A DNA stretch of 64,000 nt from Bifidobacterium breve. Its GTDB lineage: Bacteria > Actinomycetota > Thermoleophilia > Solirubrobacterales > Solirubrobacteraceae. Of this stretch, positions 23,847-42,084 are shown piece after piece. Position numbers and translations under genes: made by a program. Within the stretch, counting starts at the first letter, position 1. Each line of letters begins with the position of its first letter. Under the pieces are notes generated by a model. That model searched no databases. It was not told the origin of the DNA and saw only the letters and a program-made list of their open reading frames with translations. The DNA lies in contig CAMCUD010000009.1 of assembly GCA_945878865.1 (NCBI GenBank), forward strand, positions 62,001 through 126,000, written 5' to 3'.

Positions 23847-25040
23847 TCAGTTCGACGCGAAGGCGACGGACGCGTTCTGCCCGCCGAACCCGAACGAGTT
23901 CGACAGCGCCAGCTTCGCCCCCGAGACCGAGCGCGCCTCGAGCACGTGGTCGATCTCGCACTCCGGGTCGGGCTGCTCGAGCCCGCCCGTCGGCGGCAGC
24001 ACGCCGCGCTCGAGCGCGGTGATCGTCGCGACCGCCTCCACGGCGCCGGCGGCGCCGAGCAGGTGGCCGATCTGGCCCTTCGTCGAGGAGACCGCGGGCG
24101 CGTGTCCGTTGAAGACCTCCTTGATGGCCTTCGACTCGATCGCGTCGTTGAACGGCGTCGACGTGCCGTGCGCGTTGATGTACGCCACATCCGTCACCGA
24201 GGCGCCGGCCGACCGGATGGCGCTGCGCATCGCCGCCGCCGCGCCCCGCCCGGTCTTGTCGGGCTGCGCCATGTGGAACGCGTCGCTCGACGCGCCGAAC
24301 CCGACCACCCGGCCGAGGATCTTCGCCCCGCGCGCCCGCGCGTGCTCCTCGGCCTCGAGGATCAGCGCACCCGCGCCCTCACCCATGACGAACCCGTCGC
24401 GACGCTCGTCGAACGGCCGCGACACGCCCGACTTCGACAGCGCACCCATACGGGCGAACGCCGCATCGGGGATGCCGCACAGCGTGGCCTCCGACGACCC
24501 CGCGATGACGACATCCGCGTCACCGAACTGGATCGTGCGCAGCGCATCGCCGATCGCGTGCGCCCCCGTCGCGCACGCGCTGGACACCGACCACGACGGC
24601 CCGTACGCGCCCAGCTGGATCGCGAGCAGGCCGGCGGCGGCGTTGCTCATCATCATCGTGATGAAGTGCGGGGAGACCTCGCGCGGGCCACCCTCGAAGA
24701 AGTCCTGGAAGGTCGACTCCATCGTGGTGATCCCGCCGATGCCCGTGCCGAAGATGACCCCGAGGCGCTCGGGGTCAACACCGGCGTCGGCCAGCCCCGC
24801 TTCCTCCCAGGCCTGGAGGCCTGCGGCGATGGCGAACTGGCCGTAGCGGTCCGTCTTGCGGATCTCGCGGGGGGTCATCCACCCCTCGGGATCGAAGGTC
24901 GAGGCGGGGGCCTCGGAAACCGCGACGTCGTCCGACGGCACGATCCCCGACACACCCTCGACGAGGGCGTCGAAGAACGTGTCGACCGAGTTGCCGACGG
25001 GCGAGACGACCCCGCGCCCGGTGACGACGACGTCGCGCAT
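23847..25040 (-). CDS. fabF: 3-oxoacyl-ACP synthase II
   Basis: The 397-residue thiolase-fold condensing enzyme has Cys156 in SSACATGAH, His291 in NAHGTSTPFND and His326 in TKGQIGHLLGAAG, the Cys-His-His triad of KAS I/II enzymes, plus the C-terminal NSFGFGGQNAS. It elongates acyl-ACP with malonyl-ACP. It is the fifth gene of the fabD-fabH-fabG-acpP-fabF run and starts 2 nt after the acpP stop. The length is slightly below the usual 410, with all motifs present. The next gene downstream is a TetR regulator. Confidence 0.95.
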   Translation of the reverse strand: MRDVVVTGRGVVSPVGNSVDTFFDALVEGVSGIVPSDDVAVSEAPASTFDPEGWMTPREIRKTDRYGQFAIAAGLQAWEEAGLADAGVDPERLGVIFGTGIGGITTMESTFQDFFEGGPREVSPHFITMMMSNAAAGLLAIQLGAYGPSWSVSSACATGAHAIGDALRTIQFGDADVVIAGSSEATLCGIPDAAFARMGALSKSGVSRPFDERRDGFVMGEGAGALILEAEEHARARGAKILGRVVGFGASSDAFHMAQPDKTGRGAAAAMRSAIRSAGASVTDVAYINAHGTSTPFNDAIESKAIKEVFNGHAPAVSSTKGQIGHLLGAAGAVEAVATITALERGVLPPTGGLEQPDPECEIDHVLEARSVSGAKLALSNSFGFGGQNASVAFASN

Positions 25041-25042
25041 GG

Positions 25043-25300
25043 CTACGCCGTCGTCCCCGCGAGCTTGAGCGTCAGCTTGACCGCGTCACCCACGGTCTCC
25101 ACCGGCTTCAGCTCGTCGTCGCTGATCGTGATGTTGTACTCGTCCTCGAGCGCCTTGATGAGCTCGACGAGGTCGAGCGAGTCGACGTCGAGCTCCTCCC
25201 AGGTCGTGTCGAGCTCCGCGTTCTCGGCGCCCGGCACCTTGATCGCCTCGAGCTCGTCGCGGACGCGCTGCAGCACGGCCTCTTCGGTCACATCTGCCAT
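25043..25300 (-). CDS. acpP: Acyl carrier protein
   Basis: The 85-residue acidic protein has the phosphopantetheine site ELDVDSLDLVELI with Ser41, typical of FAS-II acyl carrier protein (DSLD variant). It carries the growing acyl chain between the enzymes of this operon. ATG 25300 is preceded by AAGGAG at 6 nt spacing, a stronger ribosome binding site than its neighbours have, as expected for the most abundant product of the operon. It is separated by 34 nt from fabG and 2 nt from fabF. Confidence 0.94.
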   Translation of the reverse strand: MADVTEEAVLQRVRDELEAIKVPGAENAELDTTWEELDVDSLDLVELIKALEDEYNITISDDELKPVETVGDAVKLTLKLAGTTA

Positions 25301-25334
25301 GTCGGCTCCTTCGTTGTCGTCTGGGTGTTTGAAG

Positions 25335-26030
25335 TCATGCGCCCATGCCCCCGTCCACGGAGAGCGTGGCGCCGTTGATGTAGCCCGCGTCGTGCGAGCA
25401 GAGGAACCGCACCGCCGCGGCCACCTCTTCCGGCCGGCCGACGCGGCCCGCCGGGATGAACTCCACGAGCTGGCCGGCGTCCAGCTCGGCGGTCATGTCC
25501 GTCTCGATGAAGCCCGGGGCGACCGCGTTGACGGTCACGCCCCGCTTGCCGATCTCCTTGGCCAGCGCGCCGGTGAGCCCGAGCAGCCCGGCCTTCGAGG
25601 CGATGTAGTTCGACTGCCCCGCCTGGGTGCGGGTCGCGACGACGCTCGAGACGTTCACGATGCGTCCCCAGCGGTTGCGCAGCATGTCGCCCATCACGCC
25701 GCGGGTGAACATGAACGCGCCGGACAGGTTCGTGTCGACGACGTCGCCCCAGTCGCTGTCGCTCATGCGCAGCGCCAGGCCGTCGCGGGTGATGCCCGCG
25801 TTGTTGACGAGGACGAAGACCTTGCCGTGCTCGGCGTGGATCTTCTCGATCGCGGCCGTCACGGATTCCGGATCGCTCACGTCGGCCTGCACGTCGCCGC
25901 CGGACCGGCCGATGGTGATGACCTTCCAGCCGTCCTCGCGCAGGGCGTCGGCGATCGCGGCGCCGATCCCGCGCGTCCCGCCGGTGACGACGGCCACACC
26001 CTGCTCCTGCATCTCACTCAGAGAGCTCAC
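25335..26030 (-). CDS. fabG: 3-oxoacyl-ACP reductase
   Basis: The SDR enzyme has the cofactor motif TGGTRGIG, NNAG, the catalytic Ser in NVSSVVATR, YIASK (Tyr-x3-Lys) and the C-terminal INGATLSVDGGM typical of FabG. It reduces 3-oxoacyl-ACP with NADPH. GTG 26030 was taken as the start because it overlaps the fabH stop (GTGA), giving 231 residues; the frame is open further upstream inside fabH and an ATG at 26012 is the alternative. It is the third gene of the fab operon. Confidence 0.93.
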   Translation of the reverse strand: MSSLSEMQEQGVAVVTGGTRGIGAAIADALREDGWKVITIGRSGGDVQADVSDPESVTAAIEKIHAEHGKVFVLVNNAGITRDGLALRMSDSDWGDVVDTNLSGAFMFTRGVMGDMLRNRWGRIVNVSSVVATRTQAGQSNYIASKAGLLGLTGALAKEIGKRGVTVNAVAPGFIETDMTAELDAGQLVEFIPAGRVGRPEEVAAAVRFLCSHDAGYINGATLSVDGGMGA

Positions 26031-26971
26031 GCCCTGTCCTCTTTCCATCCGATCACGGTCGCCCCCCACACGTAGCCCGCGCCGAACGCCGCCAGGCCGA
26101 CGAGCATCCCGGGCTCGAGCCGGCCGTCGCTCTCCGCGTCGCGCAGCGCGAGCGGGATGGACGCAGAAGAGGTGTTCGCCACGCGGTCGACGTTCGACAC
26201 GAGCTTCTCCGCGGGCACCCCGAGCTGCGCGGCGGTCGCGTCGAGGATCCGCTGGTTGGCCTGGTGCGCGACGAAGAGGTCGAGATCGTCGACGGTCAGG
26301 CCCTCGCGCTCGAGGACCGCGCGCGTCGCCTGCGCCATGCGGTCGACGGCGTTCGTGTAGACGCTGCGGCCGTTCATGCCAAGGAAGCCGCCGATGGGGG
26401 CGTTGAGCTGATCGACCTGGTAGTCGCTGCCCAGCTCGGCCGCCGCGACGCCGCGCGCGAACTCACCGCCGGTGAGGATCGCCGCGCCGGCGCCGTCGCC
26501 GAAGAGCACGGCCGTGGAGCGATCCTCGAAGTCCGTGATCCGGCTGAGGATGTCGCAGCTGACGACGAGCACCGCCGAGGCGCGGCCGGCCTCGATGAGC
26601 GCGGAGGCGTGATCCAGCGCGTAGACGAACCCCGCGCACGCGCCGTTGAGGTCCACGGCGCCAGCGCCGACGCCGAGATCGTCGGCGACGCGAGGCGCGA
26701 GGCCGGGCGTGATCCAGTCCGGCGTGATGGTCGTGACGATGATGTGGTCGAGCTCGTCGGCGCCCAGGCCGGCGTCGGCCAGCGCTTCGCGCGCCGCCTC
26801 GGTCGCGAGTGCGCCGGCCTGGTCCTCGGGTTCGAGGTGGTGGCGCTCGCGGATGCCGGTGCGGCGGACGATCCAGTCGTCGGTCGTGTCGAGCCCACGG
26901 GCTTCGAAGTCCGCGTTCGTGACGACCTTGTCGGGAAGCGCTCGGCCGATGCCGACGACGCCCGCCTTCAC
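26027..26971 (-). CDS. fabH: 3-oxoacyl-ACP synthase III
   Basis: The 314-residue initiation condensing enzyme has Cys112 in DLNGACAGF, His236 in AHQANQRI and Asn266 in NTSSASIPLAL, the KAS III triad, and a typical DDWIVRRTGIRERH near the N-terminus. It joins acetyl-CoA or a branched acyl-CoA to malonyl-ACP. The start overlaps the fabD stop (ATGA) and its own stop overlaps the fabG start, so translation through fabD-fabH-fabG is tightly coupled. Confidence 0.95.
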   Translation of the reverse strand: MKAGVVGIGRALPDKVVTNADFEARGLDTTDDWIVRRTGIRERHHLEPEDQAGALATEAAREALADAGLGADELDHIIVTTITPDWITPGLAPRVADDLGVGAGAVDLNGACAGFVYALDHASALIEAGRASAVLVVSCDILSRITDFEDRSTAVLFGDGAGAAILTGGEFARGVAAAELGSDYQVDQLNAPIGGFLGMNGRSVYTNAVDRMAQATRAVLEREGLTVDDLDLFVAHQANQRILDATAAQLGVPAEKLVSNVDRVANTSSASIPLALRDAESDGRLEPGMLVGLAAFGAGYVWGATVIGWKEDRA

Positions 26972-27795
26972 GCGGCCACCGTCACCGTCCGGCGCACGAG
27001 GCCCGCGAGGACCCGGCCGGGGCCGACCTCCTCGAACTCCGCGACCCCGTCGTCGGCCAGGCGCAGCAGCGTCTCACGGAAGCGGACGGGGGCGAGCAGG
27101 TTCGCCACGAGCTCGGCGCGGACGTCGCCGAACGGCTCGACCGTGCTGTTGCTGATGACAGGGAATGCCGGGTCGCCGATCTCGGCCGTGGCGAGCGCCT
27201 CGGCGAGCTCGTCGGCGGCGGGCGCCATGAGCGGCGTGTGGAACGCGGCGCTGACGGGCAGCCGGCGCACGCGGACCTCGAACTCGCGCCCGAGCTCGAT
27301 CGCCTGCTCGAGGCCCTCCTCGCGACCGGAGAGCACGACCTGGCCGGGGGCGTTGTCGTTGGCGACGTGCAGGCCGGTGCGGCGCGCCAGCCCGCGCGCG
27401 GCGTCGATGTCGCCGCCAAGCAGCGCGACCATCCCACCGGGAACGAGCTCGTTGGCGCGATCCATCGCCGACGCGCGGACGTCGACCACGCGCAGCGCGT
27501 CCTCGAATGTCAGGGCGCCCGCGGCGACGAGGGCGGCGTACTCGCCCAGCGAATGGCCGGCCGCGGCGACGGGCGCCTCGGCGTCGGCGTCCTGCAGCCG
27601 GGCGTCCCACGCCGCGACGGAGCACAGGAAGATCGCGGGCTGCTGGTAGCGCGTCCCCTCGTCAAGACGGGAGAACGGGTCGTAATCGAGCAGCTCGAGA
27701 CCGCGCTGTAGGCGCGGCGACGAGGTCCAGGGCTCCTCCATGCCGTCGGCATGGCTGCCCTGTCCGGGGAACAGGACGGCGGTGGCGGGGGGCAT
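26968..27795 (-). CDS. fabD: Malonyl-CoA:ACP transacylase
   Basis: The 275-residue protein has FPGQGSH at the N-terminus, the active-site GHSLGEYAAL (Ser82), and AFHTPLM (catalytic His), as in FabD. It loads malonyl groups on ACP. It is slightly short of the usual 300 residues but complete in motifs. It is the first gene of the operon. TATCGGT lies about 9 nt before ATG 27795 on the minus strand, consistent with the operon promoter giving a leaderless or nearly leaderless mRNA. The gene is divergent from the tRNA-Lys gene. Confidence 0.93.
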   Translation of the reverse strand: MPPATAVLFPGQGSHADGMEEPWTSSPRLQRGLELLDYDPFSRLDEGTRYQQPAIFLCSVAAWDARLQDADAEAPVAAAGHSLGEYAALVAAGALTFEDALRVVDVRASAMDRANELVPGGMVALLGGDIDAARGLARRTGLHVANDNAPGQVVLSGREEGLEQAIELGREFEVRVRRLPVSAAFHTPLMAPAADELAEALATAEIGDPAFPVISNSTVEPFGDVRAELVANLLAPVRFRETLLRLADDGVAEFEEVGPGRVLAGLVRRTVTVAA

Positions 27796-27893: not shown

Positions 27894-28211
27894 GGGTCGT
27901 TAGCTCAATCGGTAGAGCACCGGACTTCAACACACATAGGAGCGCCAGCAGGGAAACCACTGGTCAGTCGGCGGCTGTGTGCTGGGACCCCCTGAGAGCC
28001 TGAGGTACCCATCGCGGTGACAATCCTCAGGATTGGGCAATCAGCAGGCAATCCGTGAGAACGGCGAGCCCTCAGAGGCCATACGCCGCCCACCCTAACG
28101 TCGAGCCGAGGGTGAAGAGATGGTCCAGACCGCAACGCCTTCCCGGCGGCCGGTGAAAGCCGGTGCGGCAGGTTAATCCGAGGGATCTGGGTTCGAGTCC
28201 CAGGCGACCCA
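27894..28211 (+). tRNA. tRNA-Lys (UUU), interrupted by a group I intron
   Basis: Exon 1 (27894-27927) and exon 2 (28173-28211) join into a 73-nt tRNA. It has a 7-bp acceptor stem (GGGTCGT with GCGACCC), D-arm GCTC/GAGC with an 8-nt loop, T-arm CTGGG-TTCGAGT-CCCAG, a 5-nt variable loop and discriminator A; CCA is not encoded. The anticodon loop after joining is CTTTTAA, giving UUU for Lys. The anticodon stem has four good pairs and a C27/A43 mismatch. The break lies between positions 34 and 35, the same place as in the cyanobacterial tRNA-Leu intron. A CATACT box lies at 27877-27882. The hydrolase gene starts 1 nt after the tRNA. Confidence 0.9.
27928..28172 (+). ncRNA. Group I self-splicing intron (subgroup IC3-like) in tRNA-Lys
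   Basis: The 245-nt intron has no reading frame of its own. Core elements in order: GGGAAACCAC (27951-27960), identical to the P4-side segment of the Azoarcus tRNA-Ile intron; a Q-like GCAATCAGCAG (28037-28047); an R-like CTCAGAGGCCATACG (28071-28085); an S-like AAGAGATGGTCC (28115-28126); and a P9-like hairpin CCGGT-GAAA-GCCGG (28150-28163). The guide GAG (27940-27942) pairs with exon CTT, with the required G-U at the splice site. UAG (27937-27939) can pair with exon UUA after the intron as P10. The intron ends in G (28172). All group I boundary rules are met. Confidence 0.9.
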
Positions 28212-28998: not shown

Positions 28999-29070
28999 GC
29001 CCCCATGGTGTAGCGGTTAGCACGCCAGCCTTTCACGCTGGTAGCGGGGGTTCGATTCCCCCTGGGGGTA
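28999..29070 (+). tRNA. tRNA-Glu (UUC)
   Basis: The 72-nt cloverleaf has acceptor GCCCCCA with TGGGGGT (one G-U), the Glu-typical D-arm GGTGTAGCGGTTAGCAC, anticodon loop CTTTCAC (UUC) in the stem CCAGC/GCTGG, and T-arm GGGGG-TTCGATT-CCCCC. CCA is not encoded. It lies in the gap after the hydrolase gene and converges with the next gene. Confidence 0.95.
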
Positions 29071-29072
29071 CT

Positions 29073-39301: not shown

Positions 39302-40747
39302 TCAGTCCGTGCTGAAGAAGCTCCCGTGGAAGCTCAGCGGCACGGCCTGCGGCGCCCACGCCCGTCCGATCTCCTCGAACGTCCGCCCGTCGAGCACCAG
39401 CAGATACGACCGGTCGCTCGTGGTGTCCAGGACGACGGAGAGCACCACGCCGTCGCCCTCCTCCCGCGCATCTGGCGCCGAGGCGAACACGGGCTCGCCG
39501 GGGATCTGCCCGGCCGCCTGCCAGCGCGCCGCCTCGCCGCGTTCGAGGTCGATCCGCAGCAGCGACGGGTCGGCGCCGGGGCCGTCGGGCAGGAAGCCCG
39601 TCGCGAATGTGTAGCGGTAAGGCCGGCCCGCCGCCTGCGCGTCGTCGATGCGCGGCAGCTCGAAGGACTCGCCGCCGTAGAGGGTCTCGTCGGCGACGAC
39701 CTTGCCGCCGGGGGCCAGACGCAGCCGGCGCACCCGATTCTGCGGGCGGATCCGCGTGTCATCGTCGAGGTGGTCGAGGTAGAGCTCGTCGATGATCGTG
39801 GGGTCGTCGAACACGACCATGTCGACGACCGTCTCGTCGCCGTCCTCGAACGTGTTGACGTGGTGGAAGCAGAACGCCGCGTCGGTCTCCCATACGCCGC
39901 GGTGCTCACCCGTCGCCCGGTCGAACAGGTGCAGGCGGCTGCCCAGCTCCGGCTTCCAGCGGTAGTTCTGGATGAACGGCGCGCGCGCCCGCGCGAGGTC
40001 GAGCGGGTTGACGACGAGCGCGTTCTCGTGCAGCACGACGTGACGGTCCGTCAGCCCGAAGCTGTGCATGTACGACGGCTCGCGGACACCGAGCTTGGCG
40101 AGGCGTCGGTTGCTGTCAGCGCGGGTGGCGTGGACCTCGTACTGCGACCGCGGGCCGAACCGCGTCATGTAGTGCACGAGCTCGCCCGTCGCCGCGTCGG
40201 GAAGCGGATGGGCCGTCGTGTGGGCGACCTTGCCCGGGCTGGGCGGCAGCGCGTGGCTGACGCCGAGCGTCTCGAGGGTCTCGGGGTCGAACGCGATCGG
40301 CATCGGGAGCTCGGTGAGGGCGAGGAACTCGTCGCCCAGTCGCGCGATGTTGACGTTCGCGTTGTCGCTCAGCGCCGGCTTGAACAGCTGCATGAACCGC
40401 TGGAAGCGGCTGCGGCACGGGTCCACGGCAAAGCCTGCGAGCGTCACGCGGTCTTCCGCCGCACGCGAGCGGCGATCGGCGGTGTCGAGCATCCGGGCGG
40501 TGTACGTCACGCCACCGTCGCCGACCGTGAACGCATGCAGCATCGCCAGGCCGTCGAAGAGGTGCGGGACGCGGCCGGCGCCGACATCGAAGCGCGTGAC
40601 GCTGTTGCGCAGCAGCGTGCCGGTCAGCCACGGCGGCATCGCGCCCTCGACCTGGCACGCGGTGCGCGGCGTGTCGGCGGTGCGGACGTCGTAGATGGAG
40701 CGCAGCCGACCCTCGCGGGCCAGGCTGTCGGTGGTGGTCGGCGGCAC
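39302..40747 (-). CDS. Carotenoid oxygenase (RPE65/CCD family)
   Basis: The 481-residue protein shows the four iron-binding His motifs of the family: TTAHP (about His180), YMHSFGLT (His228), FHHVNTFED (His295/296) and LSFHGSFF (His474). Family members use O2 and a non-haem iron to cleave a double bond in carotenoids, apocarotenoids or stilbene-like compounds. ED in HVNTFED and the spacing fit active enzymes. GTG 40747 with GCGAGG upstream was taken as start; the frame is open further upstream without support. The neighbouring CrtC-like and DUF2236 genes (53-56 kb) hint at isoprenoid chemistry in this region. Confidence 0.88.
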   Translation of the reverse strand: MPPTTTDSLAREGRLRSIYDVRTADTPRTACQVEGAMPPWLTGTLLRNSVTRFDVGAGRVPHLFDGLAMLHAFTVGDGGVTYTARMLDTADRRSRAAEDRVTLAGFAVDPCRSRFQRFMQLFKPALSDNANVNIARLGDEFLALTELPMPIAFDPETLETLGVSHALPPSPGKVAHTTAHPLPDAATGELVHYMTRFGPRSQYEVHATRADSNRRLAKLGVREPSYMHSFGLTDRHVVLHENALVVNPLDLARARAPFIQNYRWKPELGSRLHLFDRATGEHRGVWETDAAFCFHHVNTFEDGDETVVDMVVFDDPTIIDELYLDHLDDDTRIRPQNRVRRLRLAPGGKVVADETLYGGESFELPRIDDAQAAGRPYRYTFATGFLPDGPGADPSLLRIDLERGEAARWQAAGQIPGEPVFASAPDAREEGDGVVLSVVLDTTSDRSYLLVLDGRTFEEIGRAWAPQAVPLSFHGSFFSTD

Positions 40748-40908
40748 AGCGGGACCTCGCTTTCCCAACGGACGAGCGAACGTTCTGACCGTACCGTCGC
40801 GGGCGCCACGGCGCGCCACTGCCGGGTCGCGCGGTCCCACGGACCGCAATCCGGGGTTATTCCGGTGGCCGGAACACCCTCCCGGCCGTATGGTGGCAGA
40901 AGATAGAC

Positions 40909-42084
40909 ATGCTGCCTCATGCCCGCCTGCATCACCGACGGCTGCTTCCCGCCGTCACGACCGCCCTCGCGCTCGCCGTGACGGCCGCGCCCGCCGGCGC
41001 CGCGGAGATCACCTCTCCCGGCCCGCTGTCGAGCGTCGTCGTCTCCAACGACCTCGGCTGCCAGGTCGCCCACACCGGTGACGCCGCGCTGGAGCTGTTT
41101 CCCTCCGGCGCGAAGCCGGGGGACTGCGGCACGTTCATCGTCGTTGGCTCCGACCTCTACGCGCCCGCTGCGCCCGCCGGCTCGGCGGCGTCGGGTCTCG
41201 GGTCGCGCACGCCGTTCACCGGCGTGAGCCAGACGGGCGTCGAGGGCGCGGGATCCACGGCCTCGCCGTTCAAGGTCACGAGCGTCGCGACCGCCGGGGC
41301 AACCGGCCTGAAGGTGACCGAGGTGGACCAGTACATCGTGGGTCAGGAGTCCTACCGCACGGACGTCACCCTGCAGAACACGGGCGGCGGTGCGCTCTCC
41401 GGCGTCGTCTATCGCGCGGGCGACTGCTACCTGCAGAGCTCCGACACGGGGTTCGGGTTCTCCGAGGCCAACGGCGCGGTCGGCTGCTCGCTGAACGCGA
41501 ACAACAGCCCGCCGAGCCGGATCGAGGAGTGGTACCCGATCACCGGCGGCAACCAGTTCATGGAGGCGAAGTTCTCCGAGGTCTGGTCGCACATCGGCAC
41601 CCATGCCCCGTTCCCGAACACGACGCGGGCGGGCGAGAGCATCGACAACGGCGCGGGCATCAGCTGGACGTACAGCCTGCCGCCCGGCCAGAGCGCGACG
41701 TTCTCGCACTACACGACGTTCTCGCCCACGGGCGTGACCGGGCCGCCCCCGCCGGTGAGCAGCAGTACGCCGTCGAGCGCGTTCGGCCCGAACGGCGTCG
41801 TCGATACGCCGAGCAACCGGCGCTGCATCAGCCACCGCTGGTTCCGCATCAAGGTGCGCAAGAAGTACTGGCCGGTGACGGTCGGTGTGACTGTGCGGAT
41901 GCCGAAGACGACGAAGATCCTCAAGCGCCCGCCGTGGGGGACCCTCGTCGACCTGCGCGGTCTGCCGAAGGGCACGTTCACGGTGAAGATCACGGCGCTG
42001 ACCGTGACCGGGGACGTCATCCGCGGCAGCCGGAAATACCGGACGTGCCGCGGCAAGCTCACGGGCGGGAAGCCGAAGCTCTGA
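40909..42084 (+). CDS. Secreted protein of unknown function
   Basis: The 391-residue product has a signal peptide (LLPAVTTALALAVTAAPAGA), then a beta-rich domain of about 240 residues with YRTDVTLQNTGGGALSGVVYRAGDCYL (NTGGGALSGVVYR is typical of CARDB/DUF11-like surface domains). After a Pro/Ser linker there is a C-terminal Lys-rich domain (KVRKKYWPVTVGVTV) ending GKLTGGKPKL. Five or six Cys may form disulfides. I do not recognise the family; an extracellular or cell-wall-associated role is likely. The last 26 bp overlap the 3' end of the convergent acetoacetyl-CoA synthetase gene. Confidence 0.65.
   Translation: MLPHARLHHRRLLPAVTTALALAVTAAPAGAAEITSPGPLSSVVVSNDLGCQVAHTGDAALELFPSGAKPGDCGTFIVVGSDLYAPAAPAGSAASGLGSRTPFTGVSQTGVEGAGSTASPFKVTSVATAGATGLKVTEVDQYIVGQESYRTDVTLQNTGGGALSGVVYRAGDCYLQSSDTGFGFSEANGAVGCSLNANNSPPSRIEEWYPITGGNQFMEAKFSEVWSHIGTHAPFPNTTRAGESIDNGAGISWTYSLPPGQSATFSHYTTFSPTGVTGPPPPVSSSTPSSAFGPNGVVDTPSNRRCISHRWFRIKVRKKYWPVTVGVTVRMPKTTKILKRPPWGTLVDLRGLPKGTFTVKITALTVTGDVIRGSRKYRTCRGKLTGGKPKL

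Follow-up and report, generated by a model that had tools for sequence, protein, structure and literature searches.

How does a bacterium read AAA codons when its only gene for the lysine transfer RNA (tRNA) with a UUU anticodon is broken within the anticodon? The question arises from the window, by which we mean the whole 64,000-nucleotide (nt) stretch of contig CAMCUD010000009.1 (assembly GCA_945878865.1) analyzed here, which comes from a soil-type actinobacterium of the order Solirubrobacterales. Reading the sequence directly, we found that positions 27894 to 28211 (plus strand) hold a tRNA-Lys(UUU) gene in which a 245-nt insert separates bases 34 and 35 of the anticodon, exactly as an original prediction made from the letters alone had claimed. 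We are highly confident, from sequence comparisons, that a group I intron splits the sole tRNA-Lys(UUU) gene of this genome, with a precursor that probably self-splices and an intron that is most likely chimeric. What is new here is the chromosomal host, tRNA-Lys(UUU), and the probable natural chimeric ribozyme.

The insert is a group I intron with a covarying core

The insert matched the full length (positions 1 to 253) of the Rfam model Intron_gpI (RF00028) at 27918 to 28140 on the plus strand, with 35.4 bits and an E value of 3.3e-7 in a search of 901 bases, and it was the sole match to this model in the whole 4.96-Mb genome (E value, 4e-7). This significant covariance-model match bore out the claim of a group I intron and, at the level of sequence, confirmed the insert as an authentic one. 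The joined exons form a complete cloverleaf with the anticodon loop CTTTTAA and the anticodon TTT, orthologous to intact Lys(UUU) genes.

We then aligned the 13 tRNA-Lys(UUU) genes that carry the intron (see below) and examined covariation in a named structure of 88 pairs, with shuffled and slid structures as controls. Standard pairs filled 98.3% of the cells, versus 32.7 to 52.3% in the slid structures, and 13 pairs had changed on both sides, versus 4.9 in the shuffles. Covarying pairs were found in P3 (columns 80/216, A-U/G-C), P5a (four pairs), P2, P8, P9a, and the tRNA stems. The P3-P8/P4-P6 core, with its P3/P7 pseudoknot, is backed by this covariation. Because P1, P4, and P7 are invariant, with every P7 pair standard in the 13 genomes, support from covariation is neither gained nor lost from them. 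Two predicted features, the pairing of a GAG guide with exon CUU (including its U-G wobble) and the terminal G of the intron, were likewise invariant in all 13.

The intron is most likely a natural chimera

Whole-intron similarity was by itself ambiguous between ribosomal RNA (rRNA) introns and tRNA-Ile introns, and we therefore scored the segments separately by local alignment. The stretch from P3 to P3′ resembled introns of the large- and small-subunit rRNA genes (LSU and SSU; Z of 8 to 12) and not tRNA introns, P8 resembled tRNA-fMet introns (Z of 6 to 9), and P7′-P9 resembled tRNA-type introns. Against 134 tRNA-type and 18 rRNA reference introns, the best class for P1-P2, P3-P7, P8, and P7′-P9 was tRNA, rRNA, tRNA, and tRNA, respectively, in all 13 tRNA-Lys introns.

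Introns of subgroup IC3 are described as being without a P5a-d extension (PMC11835236). The tRNA-Lys intron has a 7-bp covarying P5a and a P5b; its P1-P2 and P8-P9 are of the tRNA type, like those of IC3 introns, with tRNA-type best matches in 13 of 13 cases. Archaeal introns at the LSU/1931 site have been classed as IB4 (PMC6125680), and we therefore call the core IB4-like, by likeness and without formal subgroup assignment. P3-P7 resembles the LSU/SSU introns in all 13 carriers, and P8-P9 does not, P8 scoring 43 to 54 in the LSU/1931-like (IB4) comparison versus 67 to 93 for the tRNA type. On these segment comparisons, the intron is most likely a natural chimera of tRNA-type and rRNA-type introns. 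The intron is not simply of the Azoarcus type, to which the original prediction had likened one segment; its catalytic core resembles rRNA introns. An origin purely from rRNA introns was also dropped because P8-P9 and P1-P2 match tRNA-type introns.

Every rRNA and tRNA reference intron tested stayed in its own class in both halves, and the Lys intron alone crossed. This weighs against an alternative that we consider possible yet unlikely, in which there is no chimera and the intron instead represents an old lineage between IB4-like and IC3-like introns or acquired its P1-P2 and P8-P9 convergently under the constraints of the tRNA exon and the L2/P8 contact. Although exon CUU forces P1, the P8 likeness spans only about 24 nt, and support is limited to local alignments of 24- to 125-nt segments, P7′-P9 is also best matched by tRNA-type introns in 13 of 13 cases, and the P1-P2 match to the intron of Gordonia phage Daredevil (see below) takes in, for the window's genus, bases of the P1 loop that are free of such constraint.

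Returning to the chimera, we lean toward a history in which an IB4-like P3-P7 cassette moved into a tRNA-type intron in tRNA-Lys(UUU), possibly via a temperate actinophage, with the hybrid now being the sole route to AAA decoding in several genera. A tRNA-type intron like that of Daredevil would have had its P3-P7 core replaced by an rRNA-intron core, and the chimera would then have spread or persisted patchily in the Solirubrobacterales. If two intron subgroups have indeed hybridized in nature, the product would show which group I domains swap as units; domain exchange has otherwise been studied with engineered chimeras.

The spliced product is expected to be the only tRNA that reads AAA

The genome has 45 other tRNA genes with an essentially complete anticodon set, including an intact tRNA-Lys(CUU) gene, and no second, intact tRNA-Lys(UUU) gene was found among them. 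We ran an intact-gene pattern, TTTTAAN{14,16}TTCGANTC, on 232 genomes of the Solirubrobacterales and found an intact tRNA-Lys(UUU) gene in 166 of the 232 but in 0 of the 13 with the intron. A looser pattern detected the intact gene in 17 of 22 well-assembled genomes that were rechecked; the 13 carriers once more yielded no match. The intron and an intact tRNA-Lys(UUU) gene are mutually exclusive, and the lack of a second, intact copy held for the assembly and for the 13 carriers alike. The spliced product is expected to be the only lysine tRNA that reads AAA; the CUU isoacceptor is not expected to do so. We infer that tRNA-Lys(UUU) is essential. Since the intron lies in the only Lys(UUU) gene and an intact copy is absent, the precursor probably self-splices to supply the AAA-reading tRNA, and translation should depend on the activity of the ribozyme.

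Might the split gene instead be a dead or dispensable pseudo-tRNA in a cell that copes otherwise with a rare codon? AAA is indeed rare (0 AAA versus 55 AAG codons in rpoB and 4 versus 58 in nine genes of the window), and pair 27-43, which is C·A in the spliced tRNA of the window, is mismatched in several genomes. However, an intron-free relative (L055) shares this mismatch, 13 genomes conserve the exons and the core, and both the tRNA stems and the intron show compensatory changes, and no replacement gene was found in any of the 13, with tRNA-Lys(CUU) being an improbable substitute for the reason given above. We therefore regard a pseudo-tRNA as very improbable. The rarity of AAA may mean that demand for tRNA-Lys(UUU) is modest and that slow splicing is tolerable.

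Several observations weigh against our reading of the locus. The 35.4-bit match lies below the Rfam gathering score of 50. That score is a curation cut-off and not a structural feature, and the introns of the relatives likewise fall short of it (27 to 48 bits in RF00028, with 48 for the best relative). P1 consists of only 4 bp, and the predicted P10 pairing of UAG with UUA is present in the window's genus only, without conservation across the rest of the alignment. Minimum-free-energy folding of the gene as a single strand was no better than that of shuffles (z = −0.8) and was not used as evidence; an unremarkable folding energy is what one expects of a pseudoknotted RNA, and our case is built on comparison. 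For the mosaic, the support consists of local alignment scores. The contrast between classes is smaller in P8 and P9 than in the core, so that convergence is possible there, the P8 likeness may be a convergence on the GNRA receptor, and the P1-P2 likeness is weak in one carrier (G010; Z of 2.1). Finally, the assembly is 96% complete and in 79 contigs, and an intact copy could have gone unassembled; the single-contig, intron-bearing relatives G001 and G010 likewise have no intact copy.

Standard annotation misses or misnames the split gene

ARAGORN missed the split gene at its default settings. With introns allowed, it found the gene, misplaced the splice points, and called a tRNA-Phe; across species, the call was Phe, Asn, or Leu. 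That the gene yields one of these tRNAs through other splice points, as the mechanical calls imply, is hardly credible, since the shifted boundaries violate the group I rule of a U-G pair at the 5′ splice site plus a terminal G (PMC11915505), intact Asn, Phe, and Leu genes are already in the genome whereas Lys(UUU) is missing, and the syntenic intron-free orthologues are Lys(UUU); the three names were rejected on these splice rules and this orthology. Because standard annotation overlooks or misnames such genes, genomes may be recorded as being without a tRNA. Two other tRNA calls were noted in this genome. At 40715 to 41027 of the window, ARAGORN with introns called a tRNA-Ala that had no group I match and is most likely spurious, and a 74-nt tRNA elsewhere in the genome (L035:81-154, minus strand; anticodon CAA) was called tRNA-Leu, although it is without the long variable arm of the leucine type.

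Proposed splicing pathway

All features of the split gene (positions in Table 1) can be accounted for by the standard group I pathway. The gene would be transcribed into a pre-tRNA with its anticodon interrupted by the ribozyme. The intron's GGAG would pair with exon CUU and the first intron C to form P1, the U-G wobble marking the splice site, and guanosine bound in P7 would attack the bond that follows U34. U34, now with a free 3′ OH, would in turn attack the bond behind the terminal G; U34 and U35 would thus be ligated and the 245-nt intron released, giving the cell its only tRNA-Lys(UUU). We infer this splicing chemistry, and its efficiency in the cell, from comparative data.

Table 1. Positions in the window of the split tRNA-Lys(UUU) gene, its predicted intron elements, and a neighboring tRNA gene
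Feature	Position	Strand	Remarks
tRNA-Lys(UUU) 5′ exon	27894-27927	+	GGGTCGTTAGCTCAATCGGTAGAGCACCGGACTT; positions 1-34: acceptor, D arm, anticodon stem, C32 U33 U34; placed from the sequence, the alignment of 13 relatives, and intron-free orthologues
Group I intron	27928-28172	+	245 nt; starts with C, terminal G at 28172; without open reading frame (ORF); conserved in 13 genomes
P1	27925-27928 (exon CUU + intron C)/27939-27942 (GGAG)	+	Wobble pair U-G at the splice site; all 4 pairs unchanged across the 13 genomes
P2	27945-27963	+	GG-GAAA-CC terminal hairpin (L2 GNRA); of the tRNA type, with the tRNA-Lys intron of phage Daredevil as nearest match
rRNA-intron-type core cassette	27970-28090	+	P3-P6 plus 5′ strand of P7 (28075-28081); best matches LSU/SSU introns, Z 8-12
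P3	27970-27975/28085-28090	+	Covaries
P4	27980-27985/28041-28046	+	Invariant
P5	27990-27992/28035-28037	+	
P5a	27999-28005/28025-28031	+	7 bp, covaries
P5b	28006-28009/28016-28019	+	
P6	28047-28049/28068-28070	+	
P7, guanosine-binding helix	G28075 + 28077-28081/28121-28126	+	A28076 bulged; pseudoknotted with P3
P8	28091-28096/28109-28114	+	tRNA-type, closest to tRNA-fMet introns; one covarying pair
P9	28130-28133/28165-28168	+	tRNA-type
P9a	28136-28139/28145-28148	+	tRNA-type
P9b, GAAA loop	28150-28154/28159-28163	+	tRNA-type
tRNA-Lys(UUU) 3′ exon	28173-28211	+	TTAATCCGAGGGATCTGGGTTCGAGTCCCAGGCGACCCA; U35 U36 A37 to discriminator A73; CCA not encoded
tRNA-Glu(UUC), neighbor	28999-29071	+	Lys-Glu-Val tRNA neighborhood common to intron-free relatives

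The intron is patchily distributed in the Solirubrobacterales

When 121 relatives were searched at the DNA level, ten genomes proved to have an intron of this kind at the identical site, and RF00028 together with a purpose-built covariance model, R1, raised the carriers to 13 of the 232 genomes of the order. R1 gave 142 to 166 bits for the carriers, and nothing else in the order exceeded 36. An exact core pattern, run on 84,980 species genomes, found ten loci in the Solirubrobacterales (Solirubrobacteraceae, Thermoleophilaceae, and one Actinomycetota record); its other three matches were in 23S rRNA, from one Acidimicrobiia and one Gemmatimonadetes assembly. Among the carriers is a named strain with a single-contig chromosome, Svornostia abyssi J379.

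Intron-free tRNA-Lys(UUU) orthologues of the same family have an empty site and keep the tRNA neighborhood of the window. On an RpoB tree, the intron was patchy, occurring throughout the window's genus (three genomes), in most of one sister genus, and in single members of others. Two further carriers, whose rpoB was not usable, come from another family; they belong to one genus, their introns are 84% alike, and one of these two introns reaches 91% likeness with introns from another family. These similarities, together with exon identities, suggest a history of losses plus horizontal exchange. The intron tree is weakly supported, and events cannot be counted from it.

In the window itself, a gene for an alpha/beta hydrolase lies between the tRNA-Lys and tRNA-Glu genes. 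Directly upstream of the split gene (23847 to 27795, minus strand) is a fatty-acid synthesis cluster with FabF, FabG, FabH, and FabD-like genes.

Phages carry introns at the same site

Searching phage DNA, we found in Gordonia phage Daredevil (NC_048021.1) a 60-bp match that spans the border between the tRNA-Lys exon and the intron. The phage has a complete tRNA-Lys(UUU) gene (L263:2495-2806), split at the same site by a 238-nt group I intron and lying beside an integrase gene; it is unannotated in the record, and ARAGORN with introns calls it Lys, ttt. Its P1-P2 was the best match to the tRNA-Lys introns among the 134 tRNA-type introns in all 13 genomes, whereas its core belongs to the ordinary tRNA type (P3-P7 Z of about 0 against the window's intron). 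Near L263:2325-2348, Daredevil has a second, uninterrupted copy of the anticodon arm, CTACGGACTTTTAATCCGCAGAG, which resembles an attachment site within the tRNA-Lys gene of a host. Conceivably, the intron protects the phage tRNA from becoming a target of the phage's own integrase.

A scan of viral contigs for a tRNA-type core returned at least 120 stretches (L282 to L403), mostly in tRNA genes, chiefly Leu(UAA), with some in a protein gene. Other viral hosts among the matches listed were Lys, Met, and probably Thr and Arg, including two further tRNA-Lys(UUU) introns at the same site, L399, which ARAGORN called, and L369, in which the splice points were placed by eye. The hosts that we read, Leu(UAA), Lys(UUU), Thr(UGU), and Arg(UCU), the last two by eye, fit the idea that GAG-guide introns can sit after any C32-U33-U34. 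The exact core pattern had no match in the viral contigs, and with a looser P1-P2 pattern Daredevil's was the sole tRNA intron, the remaining matches being due to chance. A 2014 review placed all phage introns then known in protein genes (PMC3984707), a statement that now appears outdated. Same-site phage tRNA-Lys introns offer a testable route for intron movement.

Introns in tRNA-Leu(UAA) were also seen in other mobile DNA. A 595-kb phage genome (LR756511.1; L266) has one that is long and seemingly contains an HNH endonuclease reading frame. On pCTX-M3 (L268:1486-1784) and similar plasmids, a tRNA-Leu(UAA) gene with a group I intron lies beside aac(3)-IId; similar stretches occur in 1269 plasmid records and are unannotated in the two looked at.

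Relation to known introns and other bacterial hosts

In the open-access literature, we found no group I intron in a bacterial chromosomal tRNA-Lys, and tRNA-Lys(UUU) joins a short list of bacterial chromosomal tRNAs split by self-splicing introns. The original prediction called a tRNA-Lys host unusual in an actinobacterium; Lys is not the only unusual host, given Asn, Ile, and fMet in the Actinomycetota and Lys in phages. A reported cyanobacterial tRNA-Lys(CTT) group I intron (PMC5733544) was not counted as a precedent because the inserts described, of 22 to 49 nt, fall well below the size of a group I ribozyme.

Passages in PMC8450103 and PMC4033280 credit Paquin 1997 with tRNA-Leu(UAA) group I introns in cyanobacteria and plastids. 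Like these, the window's intron has a CUU/GAG-type guide with a U-G wobble, a terminal G, no need of an ORF, a GNRA-loop P2, and tRNA-type P8-P9; unlike them, it sits in tRNA-Lys(UUU) and has an rRNA-type P3-P7 core with a P5a/P5b extension. The tRNA-Leu(UAA) introns, the phage examples among them, lie at the same place in the anticodon loop as the window's intron, after C32 U33 U34, between positions 34 and 35. The Daredevil intron shares the tRNA, the site, the P1-P2 likeness, and a similar P7′-P9 but has an IC3-like core. LSU and SSU introns of the Actinomycetota and Gemmatimonadota, including those at LSU/1931, share the P3-P4-P5-P6-P7 core with its tags CAATCAGCAGG and CCTCAGAGGCCATACGCCG; they differ in host gene, exon pairing, P1-P2, and P8-P9, and several have endonuclease-like ORFs.

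The Azoarcus tRNA-Ile(CAU) intron is likewise a small, ORF-less tRNA group I intron, but it splits the loop at another position and has no significant similarity to the window's intron in any segment beyond the L2 hairpin. The segment GGGAAACC, predicted to be identical in the two, does sit in the L2 GNRA hairpin of the window's intron; it lies in L2 of the Azoarcus intron as well, and the likeness is not diagnostic (segment Z of 1.2).

Our searches also turned up group I introns in other genes of the Actinomycetota. Those that separate positions 35 and 36 of tRNA-Asn(GUU) were apparently widespread in several families (L099 to L110 and L123); three of these (L104, L105, and L109) are longer and apparently contain an endonuclease-like coding sequence. 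Two loci of another family have introns in tRNA-Ile(CAU) (L111 and L116), and two genomes have introns in the initiator tRNA-Met (L254 and L255) whose P8 closely resembles the one in the tRNA-Lys intron. Finally, 23S introns at the LSU/1931 site (L077/L098 in G081, and L156) apparently have endonuclease reading frames, and in G081 two 23S introns lie a few bases apart.
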